Part shown: piece after piece, positions 15,399 through 56,397 of the stretch
Layout: each line of letters starts with the position of its first letter
Position numbering within the stretch: position 1 is the stretch's first letter
Source of the DNA: Aestuariirhabdus litorea
Lineage (GTDB): Bacteria; Pseudomonadota; Gammaproteobacteria; Pseudomonadales; Aestuariirhabdaceae
Direction of reading: 5' to 3'
Assembly (NCBI RefSeq): GCF_003864255.1
Contig: NZ_QWEZ01000001.1
Span: 806,001 to 870,000, forward strand
DNA: 64,000 nt
Position numbers and translations under genes: made by a program
Notes under the pieces: model-generated
Told to the model about the DNA's origin: nothing
Seen by the model: the letters and a program-made list of their open reading frames with translations, nothing else
Database searches by the model: none

Positions 15399-15589
15399 GT
15401 GCACCATTTCTGTGCGCCTTATGGGCTTCTCGGTGAGGGATTCGTCGCTAACTCTGGGCGCCGTTCCCTCTTCGGTACCCGTCTACCCCCTGTTATAGGC
15501 GGCGGGGAGAGAAAAAAGCCAAGTTGGCAAACATGCTGCATTGCTTATCCCATCAATGGAAGCATAAAGCAGGGGGCGGCAGCCGAGTT

Positions 15590-16438
15590 ATGGGTATTTC
15601 AGGTCAACGGGCAACGCTGATATTCAGCGATCTGGATGGTTGCCTGATCGATCACGATGGCTATGGCTATGCAGCCAGCGCCCAGACCCTGGCCGAACTT
15701 CGTACGCGTGTGCCCATCATATTAAACTCCAGCAAGACCTTTGCCGAAGTCGAGCAGTGGCAGCAGGAGCTGGCGCTCGACACCCCCTTCATCTTTGAAA
15801 ATGGCTCCGCCATCGCCTTTCCTCTGCACTGGAGCCCCAGCCTGCCCGCCAGCGCCTACCCTTACCGAAACCGGCTGGTGATCTCGTTGGCCGGGCCCCG
15901 AGAGCTGCTTTTGCACCGCTTAAGTGCTTTGGCCAACGACTACCGCTTTCAGGGGTTTTACAACATGTCGGTGGAGGAGGTGGTCAGCCACACGGGCCTG
16001 GACACTGAATCGGCCCGGCGTGCAAAGGAGCGACTCTTTACCGAGCCCCTGTTGTGGCAGGACGGGGAGGAGCAGCTTCTCGACTTTTCACAAGCCCTGG
16101 ATGCCGATGGGCTCTGTGTTCAGCGAGGGGGGCGTTTTGTGCACGTGATGGATCGGGTGGACAAGGCCATGGCCATGCGCACCCTGCAGATCATGCTCGA
16201 ACAGCGGGATAACACCTGCTACCAGACTCTGGCATTGGGAGACAGCGGCAATGACCGGCGTATGCTGGAGAGCGCCGATATTGCCTGCGTGGTGCGCAAG
16301 CCCTCAGGGGAACACCTGAAACTTAAACGGTCCCAGGGGGTGCACTATAGCACCGAGATCGGATCCTGCGGCTGGAACCAGCTGGTCAGGGAGCTGATGG
16401 CGCAGGGACTCATCAACGGGGAGAGAAATCATGGGTGA
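15590..16438 (+). CDS. HAD-IIB phosphatase, glucosyl/mannosyl-3-phosphoglycerate phosphatase type
   Basis: 282 residues from the ATG at 15590; the frame is open to 15524, but this ATG precedes the conserved part directly. HAD motif I is IFSDLDGCLIDHDG, motif II is ILNSSKTFAEVEQW (typical of mannosyl-3-phosphoglycerate phosphatases) and motif IV is ALGDSGNDRRMLESAD. It should remove the phosphate from 2-O-glucosyl-3-phosphoglycerate to give glucosylglycerate, a compatible solute. Its stop overlaps the start of the glycosyltransferase gene, and a glycoside phosphorylase follows, which supports this substrate over the mannosyl analogue. Confidence 0.85.
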   Translation: MGISGQRATLIFSDLDGCLIDHDGYGYAASAQTLAELRTRVPIILNSSKTFAEVEQWQQELALDTPFIFENGSAIAFPLHWSPSLPASAYPYRNRLVISLAGPRELLLHRLSALANDYRFQGFYNMSVEEVVSHTGLDTESARRAKERLFTEPLLWQDGEEQLLDFSQALDADGLCVQRGGRFVHVMDRVDKAMAMRTLQIMLEQRDNTCYQTLALGDSGNDRRMLESADIACVVRKPSGEHLKLKRSQGVHYSTEIGSCGWNQLVRELMAQGLINGERNHG

Positions 16439-17657
16439 CTTTTACCAGAACGGCATCATCACCACCTTGCATAACCTGTGTGACCGCCCGCTTGAGCAGT
16501 TGGAGGCGGAGTTGCAAAGTTTTTCCCGCACCCGTCCCATGGCGCTGGTCTTGCCTTCCCTGTTCTCCGAGCTGGAGGGGCCCGCCCTTAAAAATATTGT
16601 TGGCCATGTTCGCAACGCCTCCTACCTGAGCCAGATCGTGGTGGGGCTGGACCGCGCCGATGAAACGCAGTATCGCTTCGCACAGGAGTATTTCTCCCTC
16701 TTTCCCCAACCCTTTCGCATCCTCTGGAACGATGGGCCCCGCCTGAGGGCGATCGATGCCCAGTTGCAGGAGCAGGGGCTGGCGCCCCGCGAGATGGGAA
16801 AGGGGCGCAACGTCTGGTACTGCTTCGGCTATATACTCGCCTCCGGCAAGGCCCGTGCAGTGGCCTTGCATGACTGTGACGTGCTCACCTATACCCCCGA
16901 GATGCTTGCGCGCCTGATCTATCCGGTCGCCAACCCCAACTTCAGCTATGAGTTTTGCAAGGGCTACTATGCGCGAGTGGGGGGAAACAAGATTAACGGG
17001 CGGGTGAGTCGCTTGCTGGTGACCCCCCTGATACGAGCCCTCAAGTGCGTGTGCGGGCACTCCGACTACCTGGAGTATCTCGACAGCTATCGCTACCCTC
17101 TGGCGGGCGAGTTCTCCTTCCAGGTGGATGTGCTTAATGACCTTCGCATCCCCTCCGACTGGGGGCTTGAGATCGGGGTGCTGTCGGAGATGAAACGCAA
17201 CTATGCCACTAACCGGATCTGCCAGGTTGATATCGCCGATGTCTACGACCACAAGCATCAACCCCTCTCCAAGGAGGACGCCAGCAAGGGGCTCAGCAAA
17301 ATGAGCCACGATATCGCCAAGGCGATCTTCCGCAAGCTGGCGACCAATGGCGAGGTGTTCTCCAGCGAGCGCTTCAGGACCATCAAGGCGACCTACTATC
17401 GCATCGCCCTCGACTTTATCGAAACCTACCATAATGACGCGCGCATCAACGGTCTGGAGCTGGATCGTCACGATGAGGAGGAGGCGGTGGAGCTCTTTGC
17501 CCGTAACATCATGGAGGCGGGTAACTACTTCCTCGACAACCCGATGGAGAAGCCCTTTATCCCGAGCTGGAACCGGGTGATCTCGGCCCAGCCCGATATT
17601 TTGCAGCGCCTGTATGAGGCAGTGGAGGAGGATAACCAGGAGATGGGGGGACTATGA
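16431..17657 (+). CDS. Glucosyl-3-phosphoglycerate synthase-like glycosyltransferase (GT-A fold)
   Basis: 408 residues, no signal peptide. The metal/nucleotide-sugar motif is LHDCDVLTY with D148 and D150. The N-terminal strand MALVLPSLFSELEGPAL and the acceptor-side EFSFQVDVLNDL and SDWGLEIGVL match retaining glucosyl- and mannosyl-3-phosphoglycerate synthases. It should join a nucleotide-activated glucose to 3-phosphoglycerate. Coupled by overlap to the phosphatase upstream (8 bases) and to the phosphorylase downstream (4 bases). The exact sugar donor cannot be read from sequence; the partner genes favour glucose. Confidence 0.85.
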   Translation: MGDFYQNGIITTLHNLCDRPLEQLEAELQSFSRTRPMALVLPSLFSELEGPALKNIVGHVRNASYLSQIVVGLDRADETQYRFAQEYFSLFPQPFRILWNDGPRLRAIDAQLQEQGLAPREMGKGRNVWYCFGYILASGKARAVALHDCDVLTYTPEMLARLIYPVANPNFSYEFCKGYYARVGGNKINGRVSRLLVTPLIRALKCVCGHSDYLEYLDSYRYPLAGEFSFQVDVLNDLRIPSDWGLEIGVLSEMKRNYATNRICQVDIADVYDHKHQPLSKEDASKGLSKMSHDIAKAIFRKLATNGEVFSSERFRTIKATYYRIALDFIETYHNDARINGLELDRHDEEEAVELFARNIMEAGNYFLDNPMEKPFIPSWNRVISAQPDILQRLYEAVEEDNQEMGGL

Positions 17658-19396
17658 GCTGCTTTTCGCTGCGTGCCCGGGTCGAAGAGCATCTGCGGCA
17701 GATCTACGGGGCGCGCGAAACGCAGGAGCTTGAGGCCATCACCGACCGCTTGCTGTCGGCGATGGGACTCCGCGCGGAGGCGCCCTGTCTCGGGCAGGGG
17801 GTTGAGCAACCCAGCCAGTGGAGTGCGGCCGATGCTTACCTGATCAGCTACGGTGACAGCATCTACCGGGAGGGGGAGAAACCCCTCCATAGCCTGTATC
17901 GATTCCTTAAGCAGGAGCTGGATGGGGTGGTGAGTGCGGTTCACCTGTTGCCTTTTTTCCCCTACACCTCGGACGACGGCTTCGCAGTGATGGATTTCAC
18001 CAGCGTGAATCAAACGTTGGGCGATTGGGAAGACATCGAGGCGATTGCCGGCGACTTTGTGCTGATGGCGGACCTGGTGATCAATCACATCTCTTCGCGC
18101 AGTGCCTGGTTTGAAAACTTCCAGGCCGGGGTGGATCCGGGGCGTGACTATTTCATCTGCCGGGACCCGGCCGAGGACCTCTCTAGGGTGGTCAGGCCGA
18201 GGGCCAGTGAGCTGTTGCGGGAGGTGCAGACGGTGGCGGGTCCACGCCATGTCTGGTGTACTTTCGGCCCGGACCAGGTCGACCTGGATTTTAGTAACCC
18301 CGAACTGCTGGTTGAGTTTGCGCGCATCGTCCACCTTTACCTGCAACGGGGTGTGAGGGTGTTCCGCCTCGATGCGATCGCCTTTCTCTGGAAGCAGGTG
18401 GGCAGCGACTGCCTGCACCGTCCGCAGACCCACGAGATTGTTCGTCTGTTGCGCACCCTGGTACTCCACGCCGAGCCAGCGGCGCTGCTGGTGACCGAAA
18501 CCAATGTGCCCAGTCGGGAAAATCTCTCCTACTTCGGTAACGGCAACGAAGCCCATATGGTGTACAACTTCCCGTTGCCACCGTTGCTGCTGCATACCCT
18601 CTACGCCGGCGATTGCCATGCCCTCAGCGAGTGGCTGATGAGCATGCCGGCACCGCCGCTGGGCTCCACCTATTTCAACTTTATCGCCTCCCATGATGGC
18701 ATCGGGTTGCGGCCGGTGGAGGGGATCCTGAGCGAGCTGGAGCGGGATCGCATGGTCGCGATGGTGGAGCAGCTGGGGGGGCGCGTCAGCGTACGCAAGC
18801 TCGAGGGCCGGGTGGTGCCCTATGAACTCAATATCTCCCTGTTCGATGCCCTCTCCGCCAGTTACCAGGGCAGTGACCCCTGGCAGCAGGCGCGCTTTCT
18901 CTGCGCCCACTGTCTGATGCTGGCTCTGCAGGGGGTGCCGGCCTTTTACATCCACAGCCTGCTGGCCACCCCGAACGATTACGAGCGCCTGTTGCACACC
19001 GGTAATGCGCGCTCGATCAATCGCCACCGCTGGTCGGCAGACCGGCTGGCGGAGGCGCTGGAAAACTCCCAGAGCCCCCAGCGGCAGGTTCTGGAGGCGA
19101 TGCGGTCACTGTTGGCCATTCGCCGCCAGCAGCCGGCGCTGCACCCCAATGCCAGCCAGTACGTACTGCAGCTGGGGTCCGAAGTGTTCGGGGTCTGGCG
19201 CCAGAGCCTGGGACAGCACCAGACCCTGTTTGCGCTGACCAATGTGACCGACCGTGTGCAGTGCGTCAGCTTGCACAGTGTCAACCTGGATGCGGCGGTC
19301 GAATGGCGGGAGTTGCTAAGCGGGGTCCGCCTGGCGCCGGATCAGGCCAGCATTGAGCTGCAGCCTTACCAGTCGGTGTGGCTCAGCTCGCTTTAG
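17654..19396 (+). CDS. GH13 sucrose-phosphorylase family enzyme, probable glucosylglycerate phosphorylase
   Basis: 580 residues. The (beta/alpha)8 GH13 motifs are visible: MADLVINHISSRSAWF, the nucleophile in VFRLDAIAFLWK (D240), the acid/base in LLVTETNVP (E282) and ASHDGIGLRP. This is the GH13_18 pattern, which includes sucrose phosphorylase and the 2-O-alpha-glucosylglycerate phosphorylases (Meiothermus GGaP, E. coli YcjM). Next to a glucosyl-3-phosphoglycerate synthase and phosphatase, glucosylglycerate is the likely substrate, released as glucose 1-phosphate and glycerate. Its ATGA overlaps the synthase stop. Sucrose cannot be excluded from sequence alone. Confidence 0.85.
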   Translation: MSCFSLRARVEEHLRQIYGARETQELEAITDRLLSAMGLRAEAPCLGQGVEQPSQWSAADAYLISYGDSIYREGEKPLHSLYRFLKQELDGVVSAVHLLPFFPYTSDDGFAVMDFTSVNQTLGDWEDIEAIAGDFVLMADLVINHISSRSAWFENFQAGVDPGRDYFICRDPAEDLSRVVRPRASELLREVQTVAGPRHVWCTFGPDQVDLDFSNPELLVEFARIVHLYLQRGVRVFRLDAIAFLWKQVGSDCLHRPQTHEIVRLLRTLVLHAEPAALLVTETNVPSRENLSYFGNGNEAHMVYNFPLPPLLLHTLYAGDCHALSEWLMSMPAPPLGSTYFNFIASHDGIGLRPVEGILSELERDRMVAMVEQLGGRVSVRKLEGRVVPYELNISLFDALSASYQGSDPWQQARFLCAHCLMLALQGVPAFYIHSLLATPNDYERLLHTGNARSINRHRWSADRLAEALENSQSPQRQVLEAMRSLLAIRRQQPALHPNASQYVLQLGSEVFGVWRQSLGQHQTLFALTNVTDRVQCVSLHSVNLDAAVEWRELLSGVRLAPDQASIELQPYQSVWLSSL

Positions 19397-30636: not shown

Positions 30637-30654
30637 GTGCGCAGGAGAGACCCT

Positions 30655-32844
30655 ATGACATCACGAATTTGCACGGCTGGGCTTCAGATCGCCACGCCTC
30701 TGTACGAGTTGGTACGCGACGAGATAGCACCGGGAACCGGCATCGATGCCGAGCAGTTCTGGCAGCAGTTTGCCGAGCTGGTGGCGGAGCTGGCACCGGT
30801 CAACCGGCAGTTGTTGGAACGGCGGGACCAGTTGCAGCAGCAGATTGACCAGTGGCACCGGGAGCATCCGGGTGCTGCTTTCGATGCGGCCGATTACCGG
30901 TCTTTTCTGCGCGAGATCGGTTACCTGGTGGAGGAGGGGGGCCCGGTCAGGGTGACCACCTCGGGGGTGGATGAGGAGATTGCCAGCATTGCGGGCCCCC
31001 AGTTGGTGGTGCCGGTGATGAACGCCCGTTTTGCCCTCAACGCGGCCAACGCCCGTTGGGGCAGTCTGTACGACGCTTTCTATGGTACCGACCTGATTGA
31101 GGAGTCCGCCGGCCTGGAGAAAGGAGGAGCCTATAACCCCGCCCGCGGCCAGCGGGTGGTGGCGATGGCCTGCGAGTTCCTGGACCAGACCGCTCCCCTC
31201 AGCCAGGGCTCTCACAGTGAGGTGACCGACTATCGCCTCGACCACTCCACGGGGGAGGCCCGCCTGCAGGCCCGCCTGCAGAATGGAACCGAGACGGGGT
31301 TAGCGGACAGTGCCTTGCTGGTCGGCTACCGGATGGAGGGGGAGCGTCTGGCCTCCCTGCTGCTGCGCCACCATGGCCTGCATATCGAGATCCAGATCGA
31401 CCGCGAGCACCCGGTGGGCAAGGGCTCTCTGGCTGGCGTTAAGGACCTGGTGATGGAATCCGCCCTCACCACCATCCAGGACTGTGAGGATTCGGTGGCC
31501 GCGGTCGACGCCGAGGACAAGGTGGTGGTGTATCGCAACTGGCTGGGCTTGATGAAGGGCACCCTTGAGGAGCAGTTGGAAAAGGGGGGGCGTACCCTGA
31601 CCCGTCGTCTCAACCCGGATCGAGAGTACACAGACCTCAATGGCCAGCCGATGAAGCTGCACGGGCGCAGCCTGATGCTGGTGCGGAATGTGGGCCACCT
31701 GATGACCACCGATGCGGTACTCGATGCTGAAGGTAACGAGGTGCCAGAGGGGTTCCTGGACGCGATGGTGACCACCCTCTGCGCCCTGCACGATATCAAG
31801 GGGAATAATGCGCTTCGCAACAGCCGTACCGGCAGCCTCTATATCGTTAAGCCGAAGATGCATGGTCCGGAGGAGGTTGCCTTCGCAAACCGTCTCTTCT
31901 CCCGGGTCGAGGATGCCCTGGGGCTGGCACGTAATACCATGAAGATCGGGGTGATGGACGAGGAACGCCGCACCACCGCCAACCTTAAGGCCTGTATTCG
32001 CGAGGTCAGTGAGCGTCTGGTGTTTATCAATACCGGCTTCCTCGACCGGACCGGAGATGAGATCCACACCAGCATGGAGGCCGGTGCGGTGCTGCCCAAG
32101 GAGCAGATCAAGGCGCAGCCCTGGATCGCGGCCTATGAGAACTGGAACGTGGACATCGGTCTCGAAGCCGGACTGCGGGGTCATGCCCAGATCGGTAAGG
32201 GGATGTGGCCCAAGCCCGATGAGATGCGCGAAATGATGGCGAGCAAGCGTGCGCACCCAGAGGCGGGCGCCAACTGTGCCTGGGTTCCTTCACCCACCGC
32301 CGCCACGCTCCATGCGACCCACTACCACCAGGTCAATGTCTCCTCGGTGCAGGAGCAGCTGAGCCAGCGCGAGCGGGCCAGCCTGGAGGCCATTTTGACG
32401 CCTCCCCTGCTGGGTGACCGCTCGCTTTCTGCCGCAGAGGTCCAGGCCGAACTCGACAACAACGCCCAGGGGATTCTCGGCTATGTGGTGCGCTGGATCG
32501 ATCAGGGGGTGGGCTGTTCCAAGGTGCCCGACATCAACAACGTCGGGTTGATGGAGGATCGTGCGACCCTGCGCATCTCCAGTCAGCATATAGCCAACTG
32601 GTTGCGACACGGCATCTGTAGTGAGGCGCAGGTGCTTGAAACTCTCCAGCGTATGGCGGCGATTGTCGATCGCCAGAATGCAGGTGATGCGGCCTATCGC
32701 CCCATGGCGCCCGACTTTGACAGCAGCATCGCCTTCCAGGCGGCCTGTGACCTGATATTCAAAGGCTGTGATCAGCCCAGTGGCTATACTGAGCCGGTAC
32801 TGCATGCCCGTCGTCAACAGGCCAAGGCGCAGCAGCGTGCTTGA
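30655..32844 (+). CDS. glcB: Malate synthase G
   Basis: 729 residues, the usual length of the long monomeric isoform G. The start at 30655 has AGGAG 8 bases upstream. The sequence shows the N-terminal helical clasp ([15 protein letters not shown]), the TIM-barrel core ([61 protein letters not shown]) and [13 protein letters not shown]. It condenses glyoxylate with acetyl-CoA to malate in the cytoplasm. It heads the glycolate operon and consumes the glyoxylate made by GlcDEF. Confidence 0.97.
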
Positions 32845-32874
32845 TGGTTTTAATCCGGATAAGGAGAGAGTGAT

Positions 32875-33306
32875 ATGTTAACGATTCACCGACTGGAACA
32901 GCGCGAGGCGAGGTTGTTGATAGAAGGGGCCCGCCAGCGGGCCGAGGCGATCGGGGTGCCGATGTGCATCGCGATTACCGATGAGTCCGGTAACCTGCTG
33001 GCCTTTGAGCGCATGGATGGTGGCAAGACCAGCAGTGTGATCATTGCCCAGGACAAGGCCTACACGGCCGCCGCCGCCCGCAAGGCGACCCACGATTACA
33101 ATCAGGTCAATGTGCCCGGCAATCTCGCCTTCGGTATCCACACCGAAGTGGGGGGACGCATCTCCTCGGTGGGAGGTGGGCTACCGGTGATGGTCAACGG
33201 TGAGGTTGTAGGGGGGATCGGGCTTAGCTCGGGTACTCCCCAACAGGATATGGAGTGTGCCCAGGCCGGCATTGACTACTTTATGCAGCAGAGCGCCGGA
33301 CACTAG
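32875..33306 (+). CDS. glcG: GlcG/HbpS-family protein
   Basis: 143 residues, with AAGGAGAGAG before the ATG. The whole chain is one GlcG/HbpS (DUF336) domain: AITDESGNLLAFERMDGGKT, AQDKAYTAAAARKAT, GGRISSVGGGLPVMVNGEVV and GGIGLSSGTPQQDMECAQAG. Members bind haem or small metabolites; the precise role of GlcG in glycolate use is unresolved. It sits between glcB and glcD, as an integral part of the glc locus. A hairpin follows before glcD. Confidence 0.93.
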   Translation: MLTIHRLEQREARLLIEGARQRAEAIGVPMCIAITDESGNLLAFERMDGGKTSSVIIAQDKAYTAAAARKATHDYNQVNVPGNLAFGIHTEVGGRISSVGGGLPVMVNGEVVGGIGLSSGTPQQDMECAQAGIDYFMQQSAGH

Positions 33307-33325
33307 CACAATACAGAGGAGGGGG

Positions 33326-33350
33326 AGCGCCGCGTTTACGTGGCGCTTTT
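33326..33350 (+). terminator. Intra-operon hairpin between glcG and glcD
   Basis: AGCGCC (33326-33331) pairs with GGCGCT (33342-33347), with partial pairing inside, followed by TTTTCCC. It is a weak rho-independent terminator or a processing/stability element, and could set the expression ratio of glcBG to glcDEF. The glcD ribosome-binding site lies just after it. Confidence 0.45.
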
Positions 33351-33366
33351 CCCGTTTAGGAGAGCC

Positions 33367-34833
33367 ATGAAACAGCAACCCCTGATCAGTAAATCGGCGC
33401 TGGCACAGCGATTTCGGGAAGTGATCAATCCCGCCTTTGTCATCGAGGACAGCGAAACCCAGAAGCCCTACGAGTGCGATGGGCTCTCGGTCTATACCGA
33501 GATGCCTCTGCTGGTAGTGCTGCCGGACACCGTGGCGCAGGTGCAGGAGGTGATGCGCATCTGCCACCATTATCAGGTACCGGTGATCGCCCGCGGAGCC
33601 GGGACCGGCCTCTGCGCCGGCGCCATGCCTAGCCCCGATGCGGTGGTGCTGTCGCTGGCCCGTTTCAACCGGATTCTGGAGATCGATCCCCGCAGCCGGA
33701 CTGCCCGGGTGCAGCCGGGGGTCCGCAATCTTGCGATCTCTGAAGCGGCGTCGGAGCAGGGGCTTTACTACGGCCCCGACCCCTCCTCCCAGATCGCCTG
33801 CACCATCGGTGGCAACGTGGCGGAAAATTCGGGCGGGGTGCACTGCCTCAAGTACGGTTTGACGGTCCACAATATCCTCGAGCTGGAGATGATTACCGTC
33901 GAGGGAGAGCGGGTAGTGGTCGGCTCCCAGGGGCTCGACAGTGCCGGCTACGACCTGATGGCCCTGATGACCGGCTCCGAGGGGCTGCTTGGGGTCGTCA
34001 CCGAGGTGCGGGTTCGTTTGCTGCCCACCCCCGAGGTGGCGCAGGTGGTGATGGTGGCCTTCGATTCCGTGCAAAAGGCGGGGGATGCGGTGGGTGGCAT
34101 TATCGCCGAGGGGATTATCCCGGCGGGGCTGGAGATGATGGACGGCTATGCCATCCAGGCCGCCGAAGCCTTCGCCAAGGCCGGCTACCCGGTGGAGGCC
34201 GAGGCGCTTCTGCTGTGCGAGGTGGACGGGACCCGCGAGGAGGTGGAGGAGCACCTTGCGCGGGTGGAGTCGCTGTTTGTGGAACTGGGGGCGATCGCGA
34301 CCCGGGTCTCCCACAATGAAGAGGAGCGTGCGCTGCTGTGGAAGGGACGTAAATCAGCCTTTCCCGCCGTCGGTCGCCTGTCTCCCGACTACTACTGCAT
34401 GGATGGCACCATTCCGCGCGGGCAACTGACCCATGTCCTCACCGAGATGCAGAAGCTCTCCGACCACTATGGTCTACGGGTAGCCAATGTGTTCCATGCC
34501 GGTGACGGTAACCTGCACCCGCTGATCCTGTTTGACGCCAATGTACCGGGCGAGCTGGAGAAGACCGAGGAGTTTGGCGCCCGCATCCTGGAGCTCTGTG
34601 TAGAAGTGGGTGGCTGTATTACCGGCGAGCACGGCGTAGGGGTGGAGAAGATTCGGCAGATGCACAGCCAGTTTAATGATCAGGAGCTGAGCCTGTTTCA
34701 CGCCATCAAACACGCCTTCGATCCCCGTGGAAGCCTTAATCCGGGCAAGGGCATCCCGGTGTTGAAACGCTGTCAGGAGTATCGCTCCCTTGACCATATC
34801 GATGAACCGTCCACGGCAGGGGGAACGCACTGA
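33367..34833 (+). CDS. glcD: Glycolate oxidase subunit GlcD (FAD-linked)
   Basis: 488 residues from the ATG at 33367, preceded by TAGGAG; the open frame upstream overlaps the hairpin. The N-terminal half is an FAD_binding_4 domain (VPVIARGAGTGLCAGAMPSP, IGGNVAENSGGVHCLKYGLT). The C-terminal half is FAD-oxidase-like, ending with the family signature GGCITGEHGVGVEKI. With GlcE and GlcF it oxidises glycolate to glyoxylate and passes electrons to the respiratory chain. The stop overlaps the glcE start. Confidence 0.96.
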   Translation: MKQQPLISKSALAQRFREVINPAFVIEDSETQKPYECDGLSVYTEMPLLVVLPDTVAQVQEVMRICHHYQVPVIARGAGTGLCAGAMPSPDAVVLSLARFNRILEIDPRSRTARVQPGVRNLAISEAASEQGLYYGPDPSSQIACTIGGNVAENSGGVHCLKYGLTVHNILELEMITVEGERVVVGSQGLDSAGYDLMALMTGSEGLLGVVTEVRVRLLPTPEVAQVVMVAFDSVQKAGDAVGGIIAEGIIPAGLEMMDGYAIQAAEAFAKAGYPVEAEALLLCEVDGTREEVEEHLARVESLFVELGAIATRVSHNEEERALLWKGRKSAFPAVGRLSPDYYCMDGTIPRGQLTHVLTEMQKLSDHYGLRVANVFHAGDGNLHPLILFDANVPGELEKTEEFGARILELCVEVGGCITGEHGVGVEKIRQMHSQFNDQELSLFHAIKHAFDPRGSLNPGKGIPVLKRCQEYRSLDHIDEPSTAGGTH

Positions 34834-35891
34834 TGACGGACCAGTTAGCTCAGATTATTGATCAGGTAAATACGGCCCGGCACAGCAACCGACCTCTGCT
34901 CATCAAGGGTGGCGGCAGTAAATCCTTTATGGGGCGTGCATCCTCTGAGGGCGATATCCTGGAGGTGTCCGGCCATCGCGGCATCGTCAACTACCAGCCG
35001 GTGGAGTTGGTACTGACGGCCCGTGCCGGAACCCCGATTCGTGACATCGAAGCGGCTCTGGATGAGCAGGGCCAGCGACTCAGTTTTGAGCCGCCCCTGT
35101 TTGGCGGCGAGGCCACCATCGGTGGCACCCTGGCCACCAACCAGTCCGGCCCGGGTCGACCCTGGCAAGGCTCGGTTCGGGACATGGTGCTGGGGGTGCG
35201 GCTGGTAAATGGCGAAGGGGAGCACCTGCGCTTCGGCGGGCAGGTGATGAAAAACGTAGCGGGTTACGACCTCTCCCGCTTCCAGGCCGGCGCCATGGGC
35301 ACCCTGGGTGTGATCACCGAGGTCAGCCTCAAGGTGCTCCCCAAACCCGCCTGTAGTCGAACCCTGCGCATTGAGTGCGATGCCCAGGAGGCGATCGATA
35401 CCATGAATCGCCTGGCGGGGACCCCCAAGCCCCTGACCGCCGCCTGCTGGCTCGACGGTGTGCTCTATCTCCGGCTGGAGGGGGCCTCCAGTGCCGTGGA
35501 GGGGACCATCGCCCAGTGGCCCGGCGCGGTATGGGAGGAGGTAGCTGATTTCTGGACCCGCCTGCGGGAGCAGCAGCTGGACTATTTTGAAGGCGACCAG
35601 CCCCTGTGGCGCTTCTCCATCAACTCGGCGGCGCCACAACTGGCGGCCGCCGGGCAGTTGATCGATTGGGGGGGCTCCCAGCGCTGGTTGCGGGGCGAGC
35701 AGGATAGTGAGGCGCTGCAGCACTGGGCCCGTGAGCAGGGGGGAAGTGTGGCCCTCTATCGAGGGGGCGACCGCCTTGGTGAGGTGAATCCCCCCCTGCC
35801 GGAGCCGATCCAGCGACTGCACCAGCGCGTGAAGCACGCGGTGGATCCCCACGGATTATTCAACCCCGGTCGGCTCTACAGCTGGTTGTAA
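34833..35891 (+). CDS. glcE: Glycolate oxidase subunit GlcE (FAD-binding)
   Basis: 352 residues, start overlapping the glcD stop by one base. An FAD_binding_4 domain fills the N-terminal part (PLLIKGGGSKSFMGR, GGEATIGGTLATNQSGPGRP, MKNVAGYDLSRFQAGAMGTL). The short C-terminal cap ends in RVKHAVDPHGLFNPGRLY. GlcE is the smaller FAD-domain paralogue of GlcD and is needed for glycolate oxidase activity. Length and order are as in other glc operons. Confidence 0.95.
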   Translation: MTDQLAQIIDQVNTARHSNRPLLIKGGGSKSFMGRASSEGDILEVSGHRGIVNYQPVELVLTARAGTPIRDIEAALDEQGQRLSFEPPLFGGEATIGGTLATNQSGPGRPWQGSVRDMVLGVRLVNGEGEHLRFGGQVMKNVAGYDLSRFQAGAMGTLGVITEVSLKVLPKPACSRTLRIECDAQEAIDTMNRLAGTPKPLTAACWLDGVLYLRLEGASSAVEGTIAQWPGAVWEEVADFWTRLREQQLDYFEGDQPLWRFSINSAAPQLAAAGQLIDWGGSQRWLRGEQDSEALQHWAREQGGSVALYRGGDRLGEVNPPLPEPIQRLHQRVKHAVDPHGLFNPGRLYSWL

Positions 35892-35907
35892 GGGGACGGA
35901 CAGAGAT

Positions 35908-37122
35908 ATGAAAACCCAGATTAGTGAACAGTACCGGGGCAGTGCCGAGGGGCAGGAAGCCGAGGCGATCCTGCGCAGTTGCGTACACTGTGGCTTTTGT
36001 ACAGCCACTTGCCCGACCTATCAGGAACTTTGCGACGAGCGGGACGGTCCCCGCGGTCGTATCTATTTGATCAAGCAGCTGCTGGAGGGGGGGGAGGTGA
36101 CCGACCGTACCCGAACCCACCTCGACCGCTGCCTCACCTGTCGCAGCTGCGAAACCACCTGTCCCTCCGGGGTCAAGTACGGCCGCCTGGTGGATATCGG
36201 GCGTGGTCTTATGGAGCAGTCGCTGCCCCGCAGTCCGGCTCAGCGGGCGATTCGCTGGGCCCTGCGACAGGTGTTGCCCTATCGCAACCGCTTCGGCCCG
36301 CTGCTGAAATTGGGGCAGGTGATGCGGCCGCTGTTGCCATCGGCCCTCAAGGCCAAAGTGCCCCCGACCCAGAGCGCATCACCCTGGCCCACCCGCAGCC
36401 ATCCCCGGCGCATGCTGGCGTTGCAGGGCTGTGCCCAACCAGCGGCAACACCCAACACCCTGGCGGCCACCGCTCGCGTACTCGACCGGCTGGGGATCTC
36501 GCTGGTGGTGGCTCCGGAAGCCGGCTGTTGTGGCGCTGTGAGCTACCACCTGGCCGCCCACAGCGAGGGGCTGGACTTTATGCGTCGTAACATTGATGCC
36601 TGGTGGCCTGCCGTGGAAGCGGGCGCCGAGGCGATCCTGATAACCGCCAGCGGTTGTGGCGCGATGGTGGAGGAGTATGGCCACCTGCTACGGGATGATC
36701 CTGCCTACGCCGAGAAGGCGCGTCGAATCAGCGAGCTGTGTCGGGATATCAGTCAGGTTCTGGCGGCGGAGGATCTTTCGGTGCTGGCCCTCAAGGGCGG
36801 CCAGGAGCGCATCGCCGTTCACTGCCCCTGCACCCTGCAGCATGCCCTCAAACAGCCCCAGACCGTACAGAAGATCCTGCGTTCAGTCGGCTTCGAGCTG
36901 ACCCAGACCCGTGACAACCACCTCTGCTGTGGCTCGGCAGGCACCTATTCGATCCTGCAGCCGGAAATGAGCCAGACCCTGCTGGGCAATAAGCTGGAGG
37001 CCCTCACAATGGATAATCCGGATCGTATTGTGACTGCGAATGTCGGCTGCCAACTGCACCTGCAGAGCCGCGCGCAACAACCGGTTTCCCACTGGATTGA
37101 ACTGCTCGACCAGCCGGGTTGA
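35908..37122 (+). CDS. glcF: Glycolate oxidase iron-sulfur subunit GlcF
   Basis: 404 residues. Two 4Fe-4S motifs lie in the N-terminal part: CVHCGFCTATCP (Cys 25, 28, 31, 35) and CLTCRSCETTCP (Cys 75, 78, 81, 85). Two cysteine-rich CCG-type domains follow, visible as PEAGCCGAVSYHL and NHLCCGSAGTYS. It carries electrons from the flavin subunits towards the quinone pool at the inner membrane. It starts 16 bases after glcE, and its stop overlaps the IclR start. Confidence 0.96.
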   Translation: MKTQISEQYRGSAEGQEAEAILRSCVHCGFCTATCPTYQELCDERDGPRGRIYLIKQLLEGGEVTDRTRTHLDRCLTCRSCETTCPSGVKYGRLVDIGRGLMEQSLPRSPAQRAIRWALRQVLPYRNRFGPLLKLGQVMRPLLPSALKAKVPPTQSASPWPTRSHPRRMLALQGCAQPAATPNTLAATARVLDRLGISLVVAPEAGCCGAVSYHLAAHSEGLDFMRRNIDAWWPAVEAGAEAILITASGCGAMVEEYGHLLRDDPAYAEKARRISELCRDISQVLAAEDLSVLALKGGQERIAVHCPCTLQHALKQPQTVQKILRSVGFELTQTRDNHLCCGSAGTYSILQPEMSQTLLGNKLEALTMDNPDRIVTANVGCQLHLQSRAQQPVSHWIELLDQPG

Positions 37123-37940
37123 TGCCCGTGGTGGAGCATCGAAAAGTCGTGGCAGGGAAACGGGGCAAGAGCGGGCAGGTACAATCCCTGTCCCGCGCTT
37201 TCCAGCTGCTGATGCGCCTGTCGGAAGATGAGATGGGCTTTACTTTGTCGGAGCTGGCAAGCCTCGAGCAGCTCCCCCCCTCCACCGTGCACCGTCTGCT
37301 CAATAGCATGCGGCAACTGGGTTTTACCGAGCTGGATGAGTCCCGTGGCCGGTGGAGTGTGGGTATCAACGCTTTTCGCTGCGGCAACGCCTACCTCAAG
37401 AAGCGTGATTTTATCGCCCAGTCGCGCGCAGTCATGAAACGGTTGGTGGAACAAACCGGCGAAACCTCCAATCTTGGGGTGTTGCGTGATGCTGAGGTGG
37501 TGTTTGTGGGGCAGGTGGAATGCCAGGCCGTGATGCGTATGGTGGTACGGGTAGGCAGCAGTGGCCCGATTCATGCCAGTGGCGTGGGTAAGGCGCTGCT
37601 GTCGGCCCTTCCGATGACTGAAGCCCTGAAGCTGTTGGGTCGGAGTGGCATGACGGCGCTTACCCCCCGCACCCTGACCACCCAGGCTGCTTTCAGTGAA
37701 GAGCTGCGGGCCATTCGCTTGCGCGGTTACTCCATCGATGACGAGGAGCAGAACGAAGGGCTGCGCTGTATAGCGGCCAATGTCTATGACGAGTTCGGCA
37801 TGGCTCTGGCGGCGGTCTCCATCTCCGGGCCCACGGTCCGGGTGCAGCAGCAGCGGGTTGCCGAACTGGGGGCCCAGGTAGTGGCCGCGGCGGATGAGAT
37901 TACCCACCTGATCGGCGGGTGCAGACCCGAGGGGCAATAA
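37122..37940 (+). CDS. IclR-family transcriptional regulator, likely regulator of the glc genes
   Basis: 272 residues from the ATG at 37122, overlapping the glcF stop by one base; the frame continues only to a TTG at 37119. Winged HTH at about 18-80 (FTLSELASLEQLPPSTVHRL). The IclR effector domain follows (GPIHASGVGKALLSALPMTE, GYSIDDEEQNEGLRCIAANV). Because it is translationally coupled to glcF, it would be made with the operon it probably regulates. In E. coli the glc operon uses the GntR-type GlcC instead, so this is a replacement or an additional layer. Confidence 0.9.
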   Translation: MPVVEHRKVVAGKRGKSGQVQSLSRAFQLLMRLSEDEMGFTLSELASLEQLPPSTVHRLLNSMRQLGFTELDESRGRWSVGINAFRCGNAYLKKRDFIAQSRAVMKRLVEQTGETSNLGVLRDAEVVFVGQVECQAVMRMVVRVGSSGPIHASGVGKALLSALPMTEALKLLGRSGMTALTPRTLTTQAAFSEELRAIRLRGYSIDDEEQNEGLRCIAANVYDEFGMALAAVSISGPTVRVQQQRVAELGAQVVAAADEITHLIGGCRPEGQ

Positions 37941-37987
37941 TCTGCTAGGATTCCCGCTCGGTTACAAAGCGTAACTGCCATAACAAA

Positions 37988-38027
37988 GGCTCTAGAGGGC
38001 CTGAACAGAGACAGGGGGCCCAGAGCC
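37988..38027 (+). other. Long leader hairpin before the crotonase gene
   Basis: GGCTCT (37988-37993) pairs with AGAGCC (38022-38027), and inside it GGGCC (37997-38001) pairs with GGCCC (38017-38021). The loop is about 15 bases and a 3-base bulge separates the two stems. No U-run follows; an A-rich stretch and the start codon at 38050 come next. It could stabilise the mRNA or tune translation of the crotonase. Confidence 0.5.
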
Positions 38028-38049
38028 CCAGCAGCGGAGCAAAAAAAGA

Positions 38050-38739
38050 ATGAGTGAACTCGTTAACTTGCAACTCGATGGCAAGGTGGCCACCGTCACC
38101 CTCAACAATGGCAAGGTCAATGCGATCTCCCCCGAGGTGATTGTGCAGCTCAATGAGGCCCTTGACCGGGTGGAAGCGGCGGGCGCCGTTCTGGTGTTGG
38201 CTGGCTCTCCGGGTATCCTTTCCGGTGGTTATGACCTGCGGGTAATGGGCAGCGGAGCCGATGCAGCTATTGCACTGGTGAGCGCCGGCTCTACCCTTGC
38301 CCGACGACTGCTCTGCTTCCCCACGCCGGTCGTGGTGGCCTGCGAGGGCCATGCGGTTGCCAAGGGGGCGTTTTTGCTTCTGTCCGGAGACCTGCGCATC
38401 GCAGCAGACGGCGATTTCAAGATTGGCCTCAACGAGGTGGCGATCGGTATGACCATGCACCATGCCGGCATTACCCTGGCTCGCCAGCGGCTGACACCGG
38501 CAGCCTTTGAGCGGGCGGTGGTGCTGGCGGAGATGATGGATCCAAAGCAGGCGCAAATCGCCGGCTTTGTGGACCAGGTTGTTCCTGCGGCGTCGGTGCT
38601 GGCTACGGCCCAGCAGGCGGCCCAGGTTCTCTCCCGGCTGGATATGAAAGCCCATTACCAGACCAAGCTGAAGACCCGCAAGGCATTGCTCGACACCCTG
38701 GACCAGGCGATTGAGCTGGATAAGCAGCAGTTGATCTAA
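38050..38739 (+). CDS. Crotonase-family enoyl-CoA hydratase/isomerase-like protein
   Basis: 229 residues, a single crotonase domain that is short for the family because the C-terminal region is reduced. Oxyanion-hole segments are LAGSPGILSGGYDLRVM and CEGHAVAKGAFLLLSGDLRI. The first catalytic glutamate of enoyl-CoA hydratases (in GGGCEL) is missing here (KGAFLL), whereas the second position is kept in FKIGLNEVAIGM. It may therefore be an isomerase, a hydrolase or another crotonase. It stands alone, 109 bases downstream of the IclR gene, and the substrate is unknown. Confidence 0.87.
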   Translation: MSELVNLQLDGKVATVTLNNGKVNAISPEVIVQLNEALDRVEAAGAVLVLAGSPGILSGGYDLRVMGSGADAAIALVSAGSTLARRLLCFPTPVVVACEGHAVAKGAFLLLSGDLRIAADGDFKIGLNEVAIGMTMHHAGITLARQRLTPAAFERAVVLAEMMDPKQAQIAGFVDQVVPAASVLATAQQAAQVLSRLDMKAHYQTKLKTRKALLDTLDQAIELDKQQLI

Positions 38740-38780: not shown

Positions 38781-40832
38781 CTAGGCGAGGGCTGAGCGGC
38801 TGGGGGTGTGTTGCCTGGAATCACTCCTTTGGAGCGGAATCTGGATATTGATATGGATCCCTTTGCCTGGCAGGCTCTGAACGTTGATCGTGCCTTTGAG
38901 GGATTCGGTGACCAGGTTGTACACCAGGTGCATTCCCAGTCCGGTATTACCGGCAGCACGGCGGGTCGTAAAGAAGGGCTCAAACATGCGTGATAACTGC
39001 TCCTCCTCCATACCGCTACCATTATCGCAGTAGTGGATCAGCAGACACTCCCCACTGAGGTTGCAATGGACCTTAATGATGCCTTTGTCCTGCTCGGAGA
39101 AACCGTGCTGTAGCGAGTTGATCACCAGATTGCTGAACACCTGGTAAAGGGCACCGGGGTTGGTGGTGATGGAGATAGAGGGGTCGCACTCCAGTTGAAC
39201 TTCATGGGGTGTCTTTTTGAGGAGTGGGCGGAGGCTGACCAGCATCTCATGGAGATAGTTGCTGAGCCTAATGGTCCGTATCGAACTCGTGCTCTGATCC
39301 ACCGACACCTGCTTGAAGCTGGCGGTCAACTCGGCTGCACGGCTGAGGTTTTTAAGCAGAATCTGGGTGCCTTCGGTGGCGGTGTCGAGATATTTTTTCA
39401 ACTCCGAACGCGACAGGGTCTGTTGTTCAAAGGAGTGGATCAATTGTTGGGTACAGCCGTGCAAGTGCGAGGCAGCGGTGACGCCTATGCCCACCGGCGT
39501 ATTGATCTCATGGGCAATTCCGGCGACCATGCTGCCCAGCGCTGACAGTTTTTCGGCGCTGATCAGCTGCTGCTGGGCCTGCTTGAGCTGGGTAAAGTCG
39601 CTGCCGGTCCCCTGATAACCGGCAAAACTGCCATCGACATTGTAAAAGGGGGAGCCACTGATCTTGATGGAAAAGGGATCCCCATCGGACTTGATCCCGC
39701 TGTATTCAAACTCCTTGAAGGGCTGGTGGTTGTGGATCTGTTGCAGGAGTTTTTGCCAGTCGGAACTGCTCGTGTTACCGCCACCCTGTTGGACAAACTG
39801 TTCACGGGTTTTGCCCAGTATCTCTTCCGGACGGTATCCCATCACCTCGTAGAAGCGCGGTGACAGGTAGATAAAGCGGTGCTCGGAGTCGGTTTCCCAG
39901 ATCCAGTCCGAGGCTGATTCGACGATGTTACGCAAGCGCTCGGCACTGCTCTCCAGCTCCCGCTCTAGCTTAACCTGGGCAGTCACATCGTGGCCGGCCC
40001 CCCGATACCCGATAAATTTTCCTTGGTCGTCAAAGCGTGCCTTGCCGCTGACCCGATAATGGATGACCCTGTCGCCGAGGCGCACGGCGTACTGAAAACC
40101 ATGGAAATCCTGGTGCGCCTCCATTGTCTGCTGGTGGGCACGCCACTCCTCGGGTTTCGCTTCGGCCAGCAAGGGGGTGAAGAGCTCCCACCGTGTTTTA
40201 CCAAATACCTGCTCTGGCCCTAACCCCAGTTTTTTCAGTATGTGCTCGGAGATATAGGTGAACCGGAGTTCGGCGTCGGTTTCCCAGATGGAGTCGAACA
40301 TGAAATCGGCGATATCCAGCAGGCGTTCACGCTGCTGTTGCAGTTGTGCTTCAGCCTCCAATCGCCCGCTGCGGGCGCTCTGCAGATGCTCCGTCTGGAG
40401 GGTGAGGGCCTGCTTGAGTTGCTGCTGGTCGCGCCGGATGATGTGCTGCTCCTTCAGCATCACCTCCACACAGGTACGAACAATAGCGGCATAATTGCGA
40501 GCCTGCGCCAATGGAGCTGCCACCCCCAGGCAGAATACCGGTGTGCCCTCAATGCGGACCGGTAGATTACATCCCTCAAGCATGTAATCGGAGTTGGCTG
40601 CCATCTCGGCAGTTACCTCCAGTTCATTCACCTCTCCGCTGAGAACACGCGAGGATCCTTCGTGGGGTTGGCCGGCGCGCCCCTCAATCGAGGAGGCTAC
40701 CACGATCCCGGTTCCGGCCATGATGCTGATCTGGCAGGGAACCTGGGCAGCCACTTCGCGGCAGATGCTGCTCAGGGCCTCTATCTCGATACAGAGACCT
40801 GCTTCCTGCTGTAGGGGGGGGGATGATGCCAT
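38781..40832 (-). CDS. Cytoplasmic histidine kinase with CdaR-like sugar-diacid recognition domain and two PAS domains
   Basis: 683 residues without a TM helix. Residues about 15-130 match the sugar-diacid recognition domain of CdaR regulators: IMAGTGIVVASSIEGRAG, HEGSSRVLSGEV, EGCNLPVRIEGTPVFCLGVA and YAAIVRTCVEVMLKEQ. A short coiled coil and two PAS domains follow (about 165-285 and 295-415), then the dimerisation domain (GSMVAGIAHEINTPVGIG) and ATPase (NTGLGMHLVYNL). No receiver domain or response-regulator gene is adjacent. The sensory domain binds glycerate- or glucarate-like acids in CdaR; a link with the nearby glycolate operon is plausible but unproven. Confidence 0.88.
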   Translation of the reverse strand: MASSPPLQQEAGLCIEIEALSSICREVAAQVPCQISIMAGTGIVVASSIEGRAGQPHEGSSRVLSGEVNELEVTAEMAANSDYMLEGCNLPVRIEGTPVFCLGVAAPLAQARNYAAIVRTCVEVMLKEQHIIRRDQQQLKQALTLQTEHLQSARSGRLEAEAQLQQQRERLLDIADFMFDSIWETDAELRFTYISEHILKKLGLGPEQVFGKTRWELFTPLLAEAKPEEWRAHQQTMEAHQDFHGFQYAVRLGDRVIHYRVSGKARFDDQGKFIGYRGAGHDVTAQVKLERELESSAERLRNIVESASDWIWETDSEHRFIYLSPRFYEVMGYRPEEILGKTREQFVQQGGGNTSSSDWQKLLQQIHNHQPFKEFEYSGIKSDGDPFSIKISGSPFYNVDGSFAGYQGTGSDFTQLKQAQQQLISAEKLSALGSMVAGIAHEINTPVGIGVTAASHLHGCTQQLIHSFEQQTLSRSELKKYLDTATEGTQILLKNLSRAAELTASFKQVSVDQSTSSIRTIRLSNYLHEMLVSLRPLLKKTPHEVQLECDPSISITTNPGALYQVFSNLVINSLQHGFSEQDKGIIKVHCNLSGECLLIHYCDNGSGMEEEQLSRMFEPFFTTRRAAGNTGLGMHLVYNLVTESLKGTINVQSLPGKGIHINIQIPLQRSDSRQHTPSRSALA

Positions 40833-41090
40833 TCAGGGAGTATCCAGCTTATGGCTACCATCGCACAGGGGTGCGGTAGCGGTTTGCTTGCAGAGACAGA
40901 AAAAAACCCGGGTATTCTGGGTGGCTTCGTAGGGCAGGGGGGAGAGGCCGGTTCCCTGATGGGAACCGTCACAAAAGGGTTGTTTGGCGCTACGGCCACA
41001 GGCACACCAGAAGTAGCGCTTCCCCTGGGTGACCTCCACGGCTACGGGGGCATTACCGGCACGGACAGCATCACTCATCTCAAACTCCAT
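40833..41090 (-). CDS. CDGSH iron-sulfur domain protein
   Basis: 85 residues from the ATG at 41090 (AGGA 9 bases upstream). Two CDGSH motifs occur, CACGRSAKQPFCDGSH and CLCKQTATAPLCDGSH, each with three Cys and one His to hold a labile 2Fe-2S cluster. This tandem layout is common in bacterial CDGSH proteins and points to redox or cluster-transfer roles. The stop directly abuts the start of the diacid-sensing kinase, so the two genes may be cotranscribed. Confidence 0.92.
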   Translation of the reverse strand: MEFEMSDAVRAGNAPVAVEVTQGKRYFWCACGRSAKQPFCDGSHQGTGLSPLPYEATQNTRVFFCLCKQTATAPLCDGSHKLDTP

Positions 41091-41164
41091 CGGCACTTTT
41101 CCTAGAGCATAGTCCAAGGTGAAGTGTTGGCACCAGAGTGGTGCGCCCTGGCGCAGCGGGTGGG

Positions 41165-42163
41165 TTATTGCGCGAGCATTCGAAGTGCTGTGTCGAGCAT
41201 GCGGTTGGAGTAGCCCCACTCATTATCGTACCAGGCCATCACCTTCACCTGTCGCCCGCAGACTCGGGTTTGAGGGGCGTCGAAGCAGGCGGAATGAGGG
41301 TTGTGGTTAAAGTCGATGGAAACCAGGGGGCGCTCGTTGTAGTCGAGTACAGCGGAGTGGCTGGCGGCGTCACCCATGATCTGGTTGATCTCCTCCACAC
41401 TGGTATCGCGGGCGGCAATAAAGGAGAGGTCGACCACAGAGACGTTCAGGGTGGGTACGCGCAGGGCCTGGCCGTCCAGGCGACCCGCCAGCTCGGGCAG
41501 TACCAGTCCAACCGCGGCGGCAGCGCCGGTTTTGGTGGGAATGATGGACTGGAAAGCGGCGCGGGCCCGGTAGGGGTCGCGGTGATAGGCATCGGAGACG
41601 TGCTGGTCATTGGTAACGGCGTGGATGGTGGTCATTAGCCCGTTGACCACACCGATATGGTCATTGAGAACCTTTAACACTGGTGCCAGGCAGTTGGTGG
41701 TGCAGGAGGCGTTGGAAACGATGCGGTGCTCCGCTTTCAGTATATGGTCATTGACGCCATAGACGATGGTGGCGTCGACCTCCTTGGCCGGTGAGGAGAT
41801 CAGCACCCGGCGGGCGCCGGCGTTGAGGTGGGCTGAGGCGGCCTCACGGGTTTTAAAGCGGCCACTGCACTCCAGCACCAGGTCAATGCCGAGACGATCC
41901 CAGGGCAGGGCGGCCGGGTCGGGTTCGTTTAATAGCGCGATGCGGTCCCCCATCAGGCTCAAGCTTTCCTGGTCGTGATCGACAGTGCCGCCCATGCGGC
42001 CGTGCACGGAATCGTACTGGAGAAGGTGGGCGTTGATGGCGGGATCGCCCAGGTCATTGATGGCGACCACCTGCAGCTGCTGGCGGTAGCCGTTTTCATA
42101 GAGGGCGCGCAATATCGTACGGCCGATGCGGCCAAAACCATTAATAGCAATTCGAAGGGTCAT
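41165..42163 (-). CDS. gap: Glyceraldehyde-3-phosphate dehydrogenase, Pseudomonas GapA type
   Basis: 332 residues from the ATG at 42163; the frame is open upstream but unlike the family. NAD-binding [19 protein letters not shown], catalytic [12 protein letters not shown], and the C-terminal [15 protein letters not shown] are all present. Segments such as [20 protein letters not shown] and the [19 protein letters not shown] region follow Pseudomonas GapA and not erythrose-4-phosphate dehydrogenase. It oxidises glyceraldehyde 3-phosphate to 1,3-bisphosphoglycerate. Two 19-bp direct repeats lie 85-145 bases upstream and may be regulator sites. Confidence 0.94.
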
Positions 42164-54363: not shown

Positions 54364-56397
54364 TTAATGGTTGAGGCGGGCAGGCGCCTCAATCTCAAAA
54401 CAGATCCCGTGACCCGGCTCGCTGGAGCAATGAATATGGCCCTGCAGGATCTGGGTCACACTGTTGTAAACGATATTCAGCCCCAGCCCCTTGCTGCGCT
54501 TGGCACTGGCACTAAAGAAGGGCTCGAAAATCCGCTTGCGTACCTCGTCGTTAACGCCGATTCCGTTATCGGTATAGACCAGGCGCAGCAGGTTATCGCT
54601 GCACTCTACCTCGATACTGATCTGGCCGTTGGGAATGTGGGCAAAACCATGCGCGATGGAGTTTTCTACCAGGTTGGTGATGATCTGGTAAAAAGCTCCG
54701 GGGTAGCTATGCAGCATCAGGTTGTCGGGGCAGTTAAGGTCGACCCGGTGCCCCTTGGCTTGCAGTCGGGGAGCCAGGCCTTTGAGCAGTTCGTTGAGGT
54801 ATTCGTGGAGGTAGAAATCCCTCATCTCCTCGTTGTCACGGTCGACAGCCATTAATTTGAAACTGTTAATCAGGTCTGAGGTGGTGCGAATATTGTTCTG
54901 GATTAGTTGCAGCCCCTCATTCAGGGTTTTCATAAACTGCACCAGTTCGCTGCGCTTGAGGTCCTGGGACTCCACCTTCGCCAACAACCCAGCAGTGATA
55001 AGCTCCAGGTGCGAGGCCGCGGTGACACAGATACCGATCGGCGTGTTGATTTCATGGGCGACCCCCGCTACAAGGCTGCCGAGGGACGCCTGCTTCTCCG
55101 ACTCGATCAGCTGGCTTTGCAGCTCGGTCAGGTGCTGTACGGTCTGCTGCAGATCCTGGGTTCGCTCATGTACTCTCTGCTCAAGCTGGTTGTTGAGTCG
55201 CTGAACCTCCTCTTCGGCCTGTTTGCGCTCAGTGATATCGATGACCAACCCCTCAAGCGTACCCTCAGCGGTTTGATCATCGTATACCTCCATACCGCGT
55301 TCCAGTACCCAGCGCGTTTGCTGGTCCTGGGTGATGAGGCGGTAGGTGAGCTGGTAGGCACGCTGGTTATTGGTGGCATCTTCGATCTGGTCCAGAACCC
55401 GCGAGCGGTCGTCGGGGTGGATGATCTCACCGAAGCTGACCTCCTGGCTGTTGTTGAGCTGTTGGGGGCTGTACCCGGTGAGGTCCAGGCAACCTGCACT
55501 GGCCATCAGCAGGTTACGCTGCTGGTTTTTTTCGCAGCGGTAGGCCATGCCGGGGATGGTGGATAGCAGGCGCTCGAGCTCACGGCTGCGGGTGTCGAGT
55601 TCCAGCTGCGAGTCATGGTAGTTAATCAGGGTTTCCCTGAAGGCTTGCACGGCCTTGAATATTTCCGAAAACTCATTATCAGCCTGGGTGGTGGGCACCC
55701 TGATATCGGTATTTCCATGGGACAGCTCTGCAAGCACGGCTACCAGGCGACCGATGCTTTTCCCCATCTGGCGTGATATCAACCAGCTGCCTAATAGAAT
55801 GAAAACGATCGTGGCCAACAGCAGCAGGCCAAGGTCAAACAGCCTGCTATCGGTCTGCTTCTGGATAGCCACTAGCTGGTCGAGCCCCTGTTGCTGGCGG
55901 TCGCGCAGCAGAGCGCTGAGTTGGGCGGTGGCCGACTGGAAGTGGGTGTTGGCTTCGCTCAAGTGCAGCAGTTGCGAGCCAGTGATACTGCTCTCAGAGA
56001 GGGGGTGGGCTGCACTGCTGAGGCTGGTTAGGTACTGGTTCAGCGTCTCACCTGTGCGATCCAGCCTGACCAGTTCGGAATCGCTGAAATGGAAGCGTTT
56101 CCTGAGGTGGCTAATGCGTTCAACGATCCTTTCGGCCTCACCAATTCCAACGCGTAAAAGGGTCTCACGTTGTGCCCGGTCTGTCTCCCTGCTCAGGTTT
56201 GCGAACAGGGCAAGGTGTTGATCAATCAACTCGGTACGATAGTCAGTCAGCGTGTCAGCAAGGTCAACGTAGGAATCAAAAATATTGGTAAGCTTGACGG
56301 TCTGGCTTCCCTGCGCAGCAAAAAAACTGACCGCTACATAACCGACCAGGGCTGCAGTGATGAGGGAGATCAGCAGATACTGTGTCTTGACTTTCAT
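54364..56397 (-). CDS. Membrane sensor histidine kinase (helical-bundle sensor, HAMP, PAS)
   Basis: 677 residues. TM1 about 10-29, a helical periplasmic sensor, TM2 about 188-207, HAMP (ISRQMGKSIGRLVAVLAELS), PAS (about 290-395) and coiled coil. The dimerisation domain has GSLVAGVAHEINTPIGICVT, and the ATPase has AHIPNG and SKGLGLNIVYNSV. The H-box closely resembles that of the diacid-sensing kinase at 38781-40832. No receiver domain and no adjacent response regulator. It is divergent from a PilZ gene, which hints at a c-di-GMP link only by position. Confidence 0.9.
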   Translation of the reverse strand: MKVKTQYLLISLITAALVGYVAVSFFAAQGSQTVKLTNIFDSYVDLADTLTDYRTELIDQHLALFANLSRETDRAQRETLLRVGIGEAERIVERISHLRKRFHFSDSELVRLDRTGETLNQYLTSLSSAAHPLSESSITGSQLLHLSEANTHFQSATAQLSALLRDRQQQGLDQLVAIQKQTDSRLFDLGLLLLATIVFILLGSWLISRQMGKSIGRLVAVLAELSHGNTDIRVPTTQADNEFSEIFKAVQAFRETLINYHDSQLELDTRSRELERLLSTIPGMAYRCEKNQQRNLLMASAGCLDLTGYSPQQLNNSQEVSFGEIIHPDDRSRVLDQIEDATNNQRAYQLTYRLITQDQQTRWVLERGMEVYDDQTAEGTLEGLVIDITERKQAEEEVQRLNNQLEQRVHERTQDLQQTVQHLTELQSQLIESEKQASLGSLVAGVAHEINTPIGICVTAASHLELITAGLLAKVESQDLKRSELVQFMKTLNEGLQLIQNNIRTTSDLINSFKLMAVDRDNEEMRDFYLHEYLNELLKGLAPRLQAKGHRVDLNCPDNLMLHSYPGAFYQIITNLVENSIAHGFAHIPNGQISIEVECSDNLLRLVYTDNGIGVNDEVRKRIFEPFFSASAKRSKGLGLNIVYNSVTQILQGHIHCSSEPGHGICFEIEAPARLNH

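Follow-up and report, generated by a model that had tools for sequence, protein, structure and literature searches.

The Diacid_rec domain (PF05651) has been described almost exclusively as a sensor in DNA-binding regulators. In a 2016 census based on UniProt from 2012, it was found in 1,274 proteins, including 1,192 transcription factors, 30 chemoreceptors, 3 c-di-GMP enzymes and no kinases, and the domain was assigned to the Cache superfamily and called principally intracellular (PMC4822843, Table 1). CdaR of Escherichia coli, a Diacid_rec-HTH_30 protein of the CdaR/SdaR type, responds to glucarate, galactarate and glycerate (PMC4551912). Two further described systems are close to the case presented here. 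The SLC5/STAC histidine kinases (CrbS, CbrA and RpuS) carry a transporter-like N-terminal part, sensing by CrbS and RpuS is carboxylate-related, the partners of CrbS and CbrA are transcription factors, and CrbS/CrbR regulates acs (PMC5715377). In addition, the REC-DUF3369-HD-GYP protein VCA0210 of Vibrio cholerae hydrolyses c-di-GMP as a phosphodiesterase both in vivo and in vitro, and its expression increases motility and decreases biofilm (PMC4212101).

The window, a stretch of 64,000 nucleotides from Aestuariirhabdus litorea, encodes a Diacid_rec-PAS-PAS-histidine kinase of 683 residues (38781..40832, minus strand). We propose that this protein acts as a sensor kinase of a two-component system in the cytosol and arose by a swap of sensors, in which a Diacid_rec subtype otherwise seen in a chemoreceptor has been placed before a PAS-PAS-kinase body. 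The domain would bind a small hydroxy(di)acid inside the cell, from the glycolate/glyoxylate/glycerate pool, and binding would alter kinase activity at His441 through a signal passing via the PAS domains. The phosphoryl group would then be transferred to an unlinked REC-DUF3369-HD-GYP regulator, whose HD-GYP domain would hydrolyse c-di-GMP, so that glycolate supply might adjust motility or attachment, with either sign. Taken as a whole, from kinase to c-di-GMP, we give this explanation an even chance of being correct.

Architecture of the kinase and rarity of the fusion

The initial annotation placed a CdaR sensory domain at residues of about 15-130, in front of two PAS domains and a kinase. 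The Pfam scan confirmed this fusion, and all of the quoted domain motifs are present. The PF05651 profile matched residues 22-141 (40410..40769, minus strand; E 3.7e-20) with 72.4 bits, which exceeds the gathering score of 23.6, and the proposed boundaries were right to within a few residues. The two PAS domains occupy residues of about 184-287 (39972..40283) and 298-414 (39591..39941), and the HATPase_c domain occupies residues 559-668 (38829..39158, Pfam E 8.5e-21), all on the minus strand. The boxes NSLQHG, DNGSGM, FEPFFTTR and GNTGLGM can be read in the HATPase_c domain. The HisKA match at residues 432-493 is weak and under its cut-off, and the phospho-acceptor His441 (39510..39512, minus strand), in the H box GIAHEINTPVG, is predicted from a reading of the sequence. 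The H, N and G boxes and HATPase_c, which are features of a two-component histidine kinase, are thus both present, and at the sequence level we regard the architecture as established.

The Pfam scan of the remainder of the protein returned PAS and kinase domains only, with no C-terminal HTH_30 domain of the PucR type, and Diacid_rec occupies the N-terminal place where an SLC5 transporter domain would stand. No membrane segment is predicted; the maximum 19-residue hydropathy is 1.56, which is low for a membrane helix, compared with 2.6 in the membrane kinase encoded at 54364-56397. A whole-genome search found the window kinase to be the sole PF05651 protein of its host, and there is therefore no separate CdaR in this genome. 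A single-sequence AlphaFold2 model of the Diacid_rec domain reached a pLDDT of 42, and a PDB sequence search with the domain gave no convincing match. Just past the start codon, the coding strand carries a C9 tract (40814-40822), which is among the two longest homopolymers of the window and has no counterpart at that place in the other two species of the genus; it might allow slippage or point to a risk of assembly error.

The fusion is rare. PF05651 was searched for in overlapping sets that add up to 1,613 genome searches: 57 relatives, 398 genomes from the phylum, 369 from the class and 260 from the order, together with 299 from the phylum that includes Kurthia, 218 from that of Desulfatitalea and 12 others. 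One further Diacid_rec-PAS-kinase was recognised outside the genus, in a genome of the same order and another family (G1426). None of the other over-threshold proteins in these searches was recognised as a kinase, as judged by ORF length and, for a subset, by trees. Marginal matches on long ORFs in two other phyla, apparent kinases and a chemoreceptor among them, were judged from the two ends of each ORF; they resemble membrane proteins that carry other sensors, or another type of regulator. The candidate in G502 was rejected as a membrane kinase with a sub-threshold PF05651 match. A scan of genome contigs, the output of which was swamped by kinase cores, found no Diacid_rec kinase.

The G1426 fusion combines PF05651 (E 3.4e-26) with PAS and HATPase_c domains. 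It starts 3 to 75 bp after a gene for a DctP-type solute-binding protein on the same strand, the start codon being unsure, and a dctPQM-like TRAP operon adjoins it on the other strand, where a kinase/NtrC-like regulator pair also lies next to it. The 47 kb read around the fusion contain no DUF3369 protein.

Kinase subfamily and the candidate partner regulator

Over the PAS-PAS-kinase part, the nearest relatives outside the genus are those at loci L008 and L009 (46% and 44% identity), which have a transporter-like N-terminal part, as do the SLC5/STAC kinases, and are directly followed by a gene for a REC-DUF3369-HD-GYP regulator. The window kinase differs from the SLC5/STAC kinases in having neither a transporter part nor a membrane segment, and the DUF3369-HD-GYP partner of L008 and L009 differs from the transcription factors that serve CrbS and CbrA. 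The window kinase groups with 25 other sequences in a tree built from kinase cores, and this clade of 26 rows has support of 100/100 against two outgroup rows. The deeper forks are mostly poorly resolved, and such trees therefore do not decide between orphan kinases. Response regulators within 400 bp of the clade kinases are of the DUF3369 type in all nine loci that have one (L008, L009, L011, L155, L156, L157, L213, L216 and L217), although these are not nine independent draws because L213, L216 and L217 were reached via a regulator search and L155 and L157 are orthologues. Nine clade loci of Janthinobacterium carry a receiver protein of a different kind, at a distance of more than 1 kb. Sequence comparison thus establishes both the subfamily of the kinase and the linkage of that subfamily to REC-DUF3369 regulators, and it indicates that the PAS-PAS-kinase body comes from a subfamily in which other loci carry a transporter-like, GAF or membrane sensor. 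Among these loci, L011 (285-6041) encodes a Beggiatoa protein of 1,918 residues that, by eye, starts like a Ser/Thr protein kinase and that terminates in a core belonging to the kinase subfamily described here; a DUF3369 regulator comes next.

No response regulator gene is adjacent to that of the window kinase. The window genome (G000) encodes three DUF3369 proteins, two of which have an adjacent clade kinase. The third, a REC-DUF3369-HD-GYP protein (G000:C1:10848-12458), is the only orphan of the three; it is present in all three genomes of the genus, unlinked to the Diacid_rec kinase. Its catalytic motif is intact (HD, GKIGIPD, HHEHWNGRGYP), and it is the genus DUF3369 protein closest to the L008 and L009 regulators, with 44-49% identity versus 33-34% for one of the two paired proteins and 39-41%, over the first 300 residues only, for the EAL-bearing one. 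In all three species, its gene is convergent with genes resembling hyi (hydroxypyruvate isomerase) and glxR (tartronate-semialdehyde reductase), families that were checked in G000 and are best matches with scores under the NCBIfam cut-offs. Near the orphan regulator lies a DUF1631-GGDEF-EAL protein (L154:18-3101, on G000:C1), which places two c-di-GMP proteins close to the hyi- and glxR-like genes; the 1,027-residue ORF beside the regulator, considered as a glyoxylate carboligase, proved to be this protein.

The pairing of the window kinase with the orphan regulator is mainly an argument by elimination: the other DUF3369 proteins are already paired, and the genome of the third species (G002, 87% complete) contains one clade kinase, which is the Diacid_rec kinase, and one DUF3369 regulator, which is the orphan. 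However, besides the window kinase, G000 has two clade kinases with no adjacent regulator (C1:72692-73444 and window 54364-56397) and the second species (G001) has three, and the orphan could therefore serve those instead or as well. The kinase at 54364-56397 (minus strand; 677 residues, HAMP-PAS-kinase with a membrane segment) is a rival partner of this kind. Other DUF3369 HD-GYP regulators are also orphans, in genera where the Diacid_rec kinase was not seen. We nevertheless consider a REC-DUF3369-HD-GYP c-di-GMP phosphodiesterase to be the probable output of the window kinase, and VCA0210, compared by architecture only, has the same architecture as the predicted partner.

The alternative that survives best is that the kinase senses a carboxylate and controls transcription of the glycolate genes or of carboxylate uptake via a distant NtrC- or LuxR-type regulator, as in CrbS/CrbR and CbrA/CbrB, with no role for c-di-GMP. 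The CrbS/CbrA-like transporter part of L008 and L009, the closest full-length kin, is consistent with this alternative, as are the 57 receiver matches in the window genome and the kinase, NtrC-like regulator and TRAP operon near the G1426 fusion. However, that NtrC-like regulator overlaps its own kinase gene, no transcriptional two-component regulator adjoins the window kinase, and the linked regulators of the kinase clade are all of the DUF3369 type. We therefore consider transcriptional control rather unlikely.

Subtype and ligand residues of the Diacid_rec domain

The initial annotation described the domain as CdaR-type, and this description holds in part. Like the CdaR/SdaR-type regulators, the window kinase has an N-terminal PF05651 domain in the cytosol. 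Compared with 39 CdaR-type rows, the three kinases of the genus keep I23, G42, R52, H57, G59, G87, P91 and G103, among which R52, H57, G59 and P91 are common to CdaR-type regulators and the window kinase; E58 is retained in all three kinases and N89 in two of three, the window kinase being one of the two. However, the window protein has a kinase output in place of the HTH, and V24 is replaced by C, G100 by F or L, G106 by A and P108 by L or M in the genus kinases, the last three positions being invariant in the 39 CdaR-type proteins. Because several invariant residues are changed, the pocket may differ, and glycerate or glucarate should not be assumed as the ligand.

Moreover, the domain belongs to a separate branch. 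In a tree of 31 Diacid_rec domains, the four kinase-fused domains and that of the Azospirillum thermophilum chemoreceptor WP_109331649.1 split from the 26 others with support of 98/99; the 26 are CdaR-type as far as checked, and the tree has long branches. The chemoreceptor domain is thus of the same signal-transduction subtype. It shows 36% identity to the window kinase over the matched part, and both proteins have I-C at positions 23-24, the end motif A/G-P..A..Y and an output other than DNA binding, which is MCPsignal in the former and a kinase in the latter. A tree in which the four kinase-fused domains form one clade is neither shown nor rejected (p-AU 0.34), and both one and two fusion events are therefore possible. 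A second protein, H1 of Azospirillum B510, was considered as a chemoreceptor and rejected as CdaR-type.

The loss of G100, G106 and P108 could also mean that the domain has lost its binding of sugar acids and become a dimerisation or relay part, while the PAS domains sense redox, oxygen or another ligand. Two PAS domains do stand between Diacid_rec and the kinase, and the start of the window kinase gene abuts, at TGA ATG, the stop codon of a gene for a small cysteine-rich protein (40833..41219, minus strand; CDGSH type by eye), an iron-sulfur-type neighbour. However, this gene is absent before the kinase in G002, R52, H57, E58 and G59 are retained in all three genus kinases, and R52 and H57 are also present in the chemoreceptor and G1426 domains. 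The domain itself is retained in the three species at 55-57% identity. Furthermore, carboxylate-related genes adjoin both examples of the fusion, which favours a small-acid ligand. A domain that does not bind a sugar acid therefore appears unlikely, and less likely than a sensor of the kind that we propose.

The glycolate locus and its conservation

The proximity to a glycolate operon pointed out in the initial annotation is confirmed. The glc cluster (30637-38739, plus strand) begins with glcB, malate synthase G (30637..32844, NCBIfam E 0), and a gene for a GlcG-like protein of the DUF336 type (32875..33306), assigned by position and sequence, with no NCBIfam match at E 1e-20. The glycolate oxidase subunits GlcD (33340..34833; best NCBIfam match 745.6 bits, cut-off 897), GlcE (34833..35891) and GlcF (35908..37122) follow, the last two over their NCBIfam cut-offs. 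The regulator of the cluster (37119..37940) is of the IclR type nearest BhcR (NCBIfam 308 bits, cut-off 350) and not a GntR-type GlcC; its gene is missing between glcF and ech in G002. The crotonase/enoyl-CoA hydratase-family gene ech (38050..38739) ends 41 bp from the end of the kinase gene, and the two genes lie convergently on opposite strands, which places the kinase gene outside the glc operon.

GlcG and the Diacid_rec domain have a stretch G..LPV...G..V...G.. in common, for which hhalign, run with only two GlcG rows, gave a probability of 58% and an E-value of 9.7e-5 across 24 columns. The glucosylglycerate genes to which the initial annotation also pointed are present at 15524-19396, where genes for a phosphatase of the MPGP family, a GpgS-like synthase and an enzyme of the sucrose-phosphorylase family follow one another and probably serve glucosylglycerate metabolism. 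However, they are approximately 19 kb from the kinase and are assigned by family only, the synthase and the phosphorylase-family enzyme scoring well under the NCBIfam cut-offs.

The Diacid_rec kinase is present in each of the three species sampled within the genus, with 58-62% identity over nearly the full length, and is convergent with the glc...ech cluster in each, ech being its neighbour throughout. Within this one genus, comparison of the three genomes establishes the conservation of the kinase beside the glycolate genes. In G002, the kinase gene has an apparent TATAAT and GAGGGAG of its own (by eye). That the neighbourhood arose by chance and the kinase does something unrelated, with a partner among many unlinked regulators, would fit a kinase gene that is not co-transcribed with the glc genes and a linkage examined in one genus, but we consider it very improbable because the other side of the locus has been rearranged (the gap-like and CDGSH-like genes behind the window kinase are both missing from G002), whereas the junction between the glc cluster and the kinase has been kept.

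In the sensor kinase that we propose, a small-acid-sensing module of DNA-binding regulators replaces the usual membrane or transporter sensor of the kinase. The kinase-fused domains reveal a separate signal-transduction branch of Diacid_rec, for which the predictions of ligand and of c-di-GMP output are testable. It is possible, though we suggest it only tentatively, that cytosolic Diacid_rec kinases form a small, as yet undescribed class that connects intracellular acids of the glycolate/glycerate type to c-di-GMP turnover via an unlinked HD-GYP phosphodiesterase and thereby couples glycolate use to the switch between moving and settling. Phytoplankton release glycolate in quantity. If true, this connection would tie glycolate to a bacterial choice of lifestyle.
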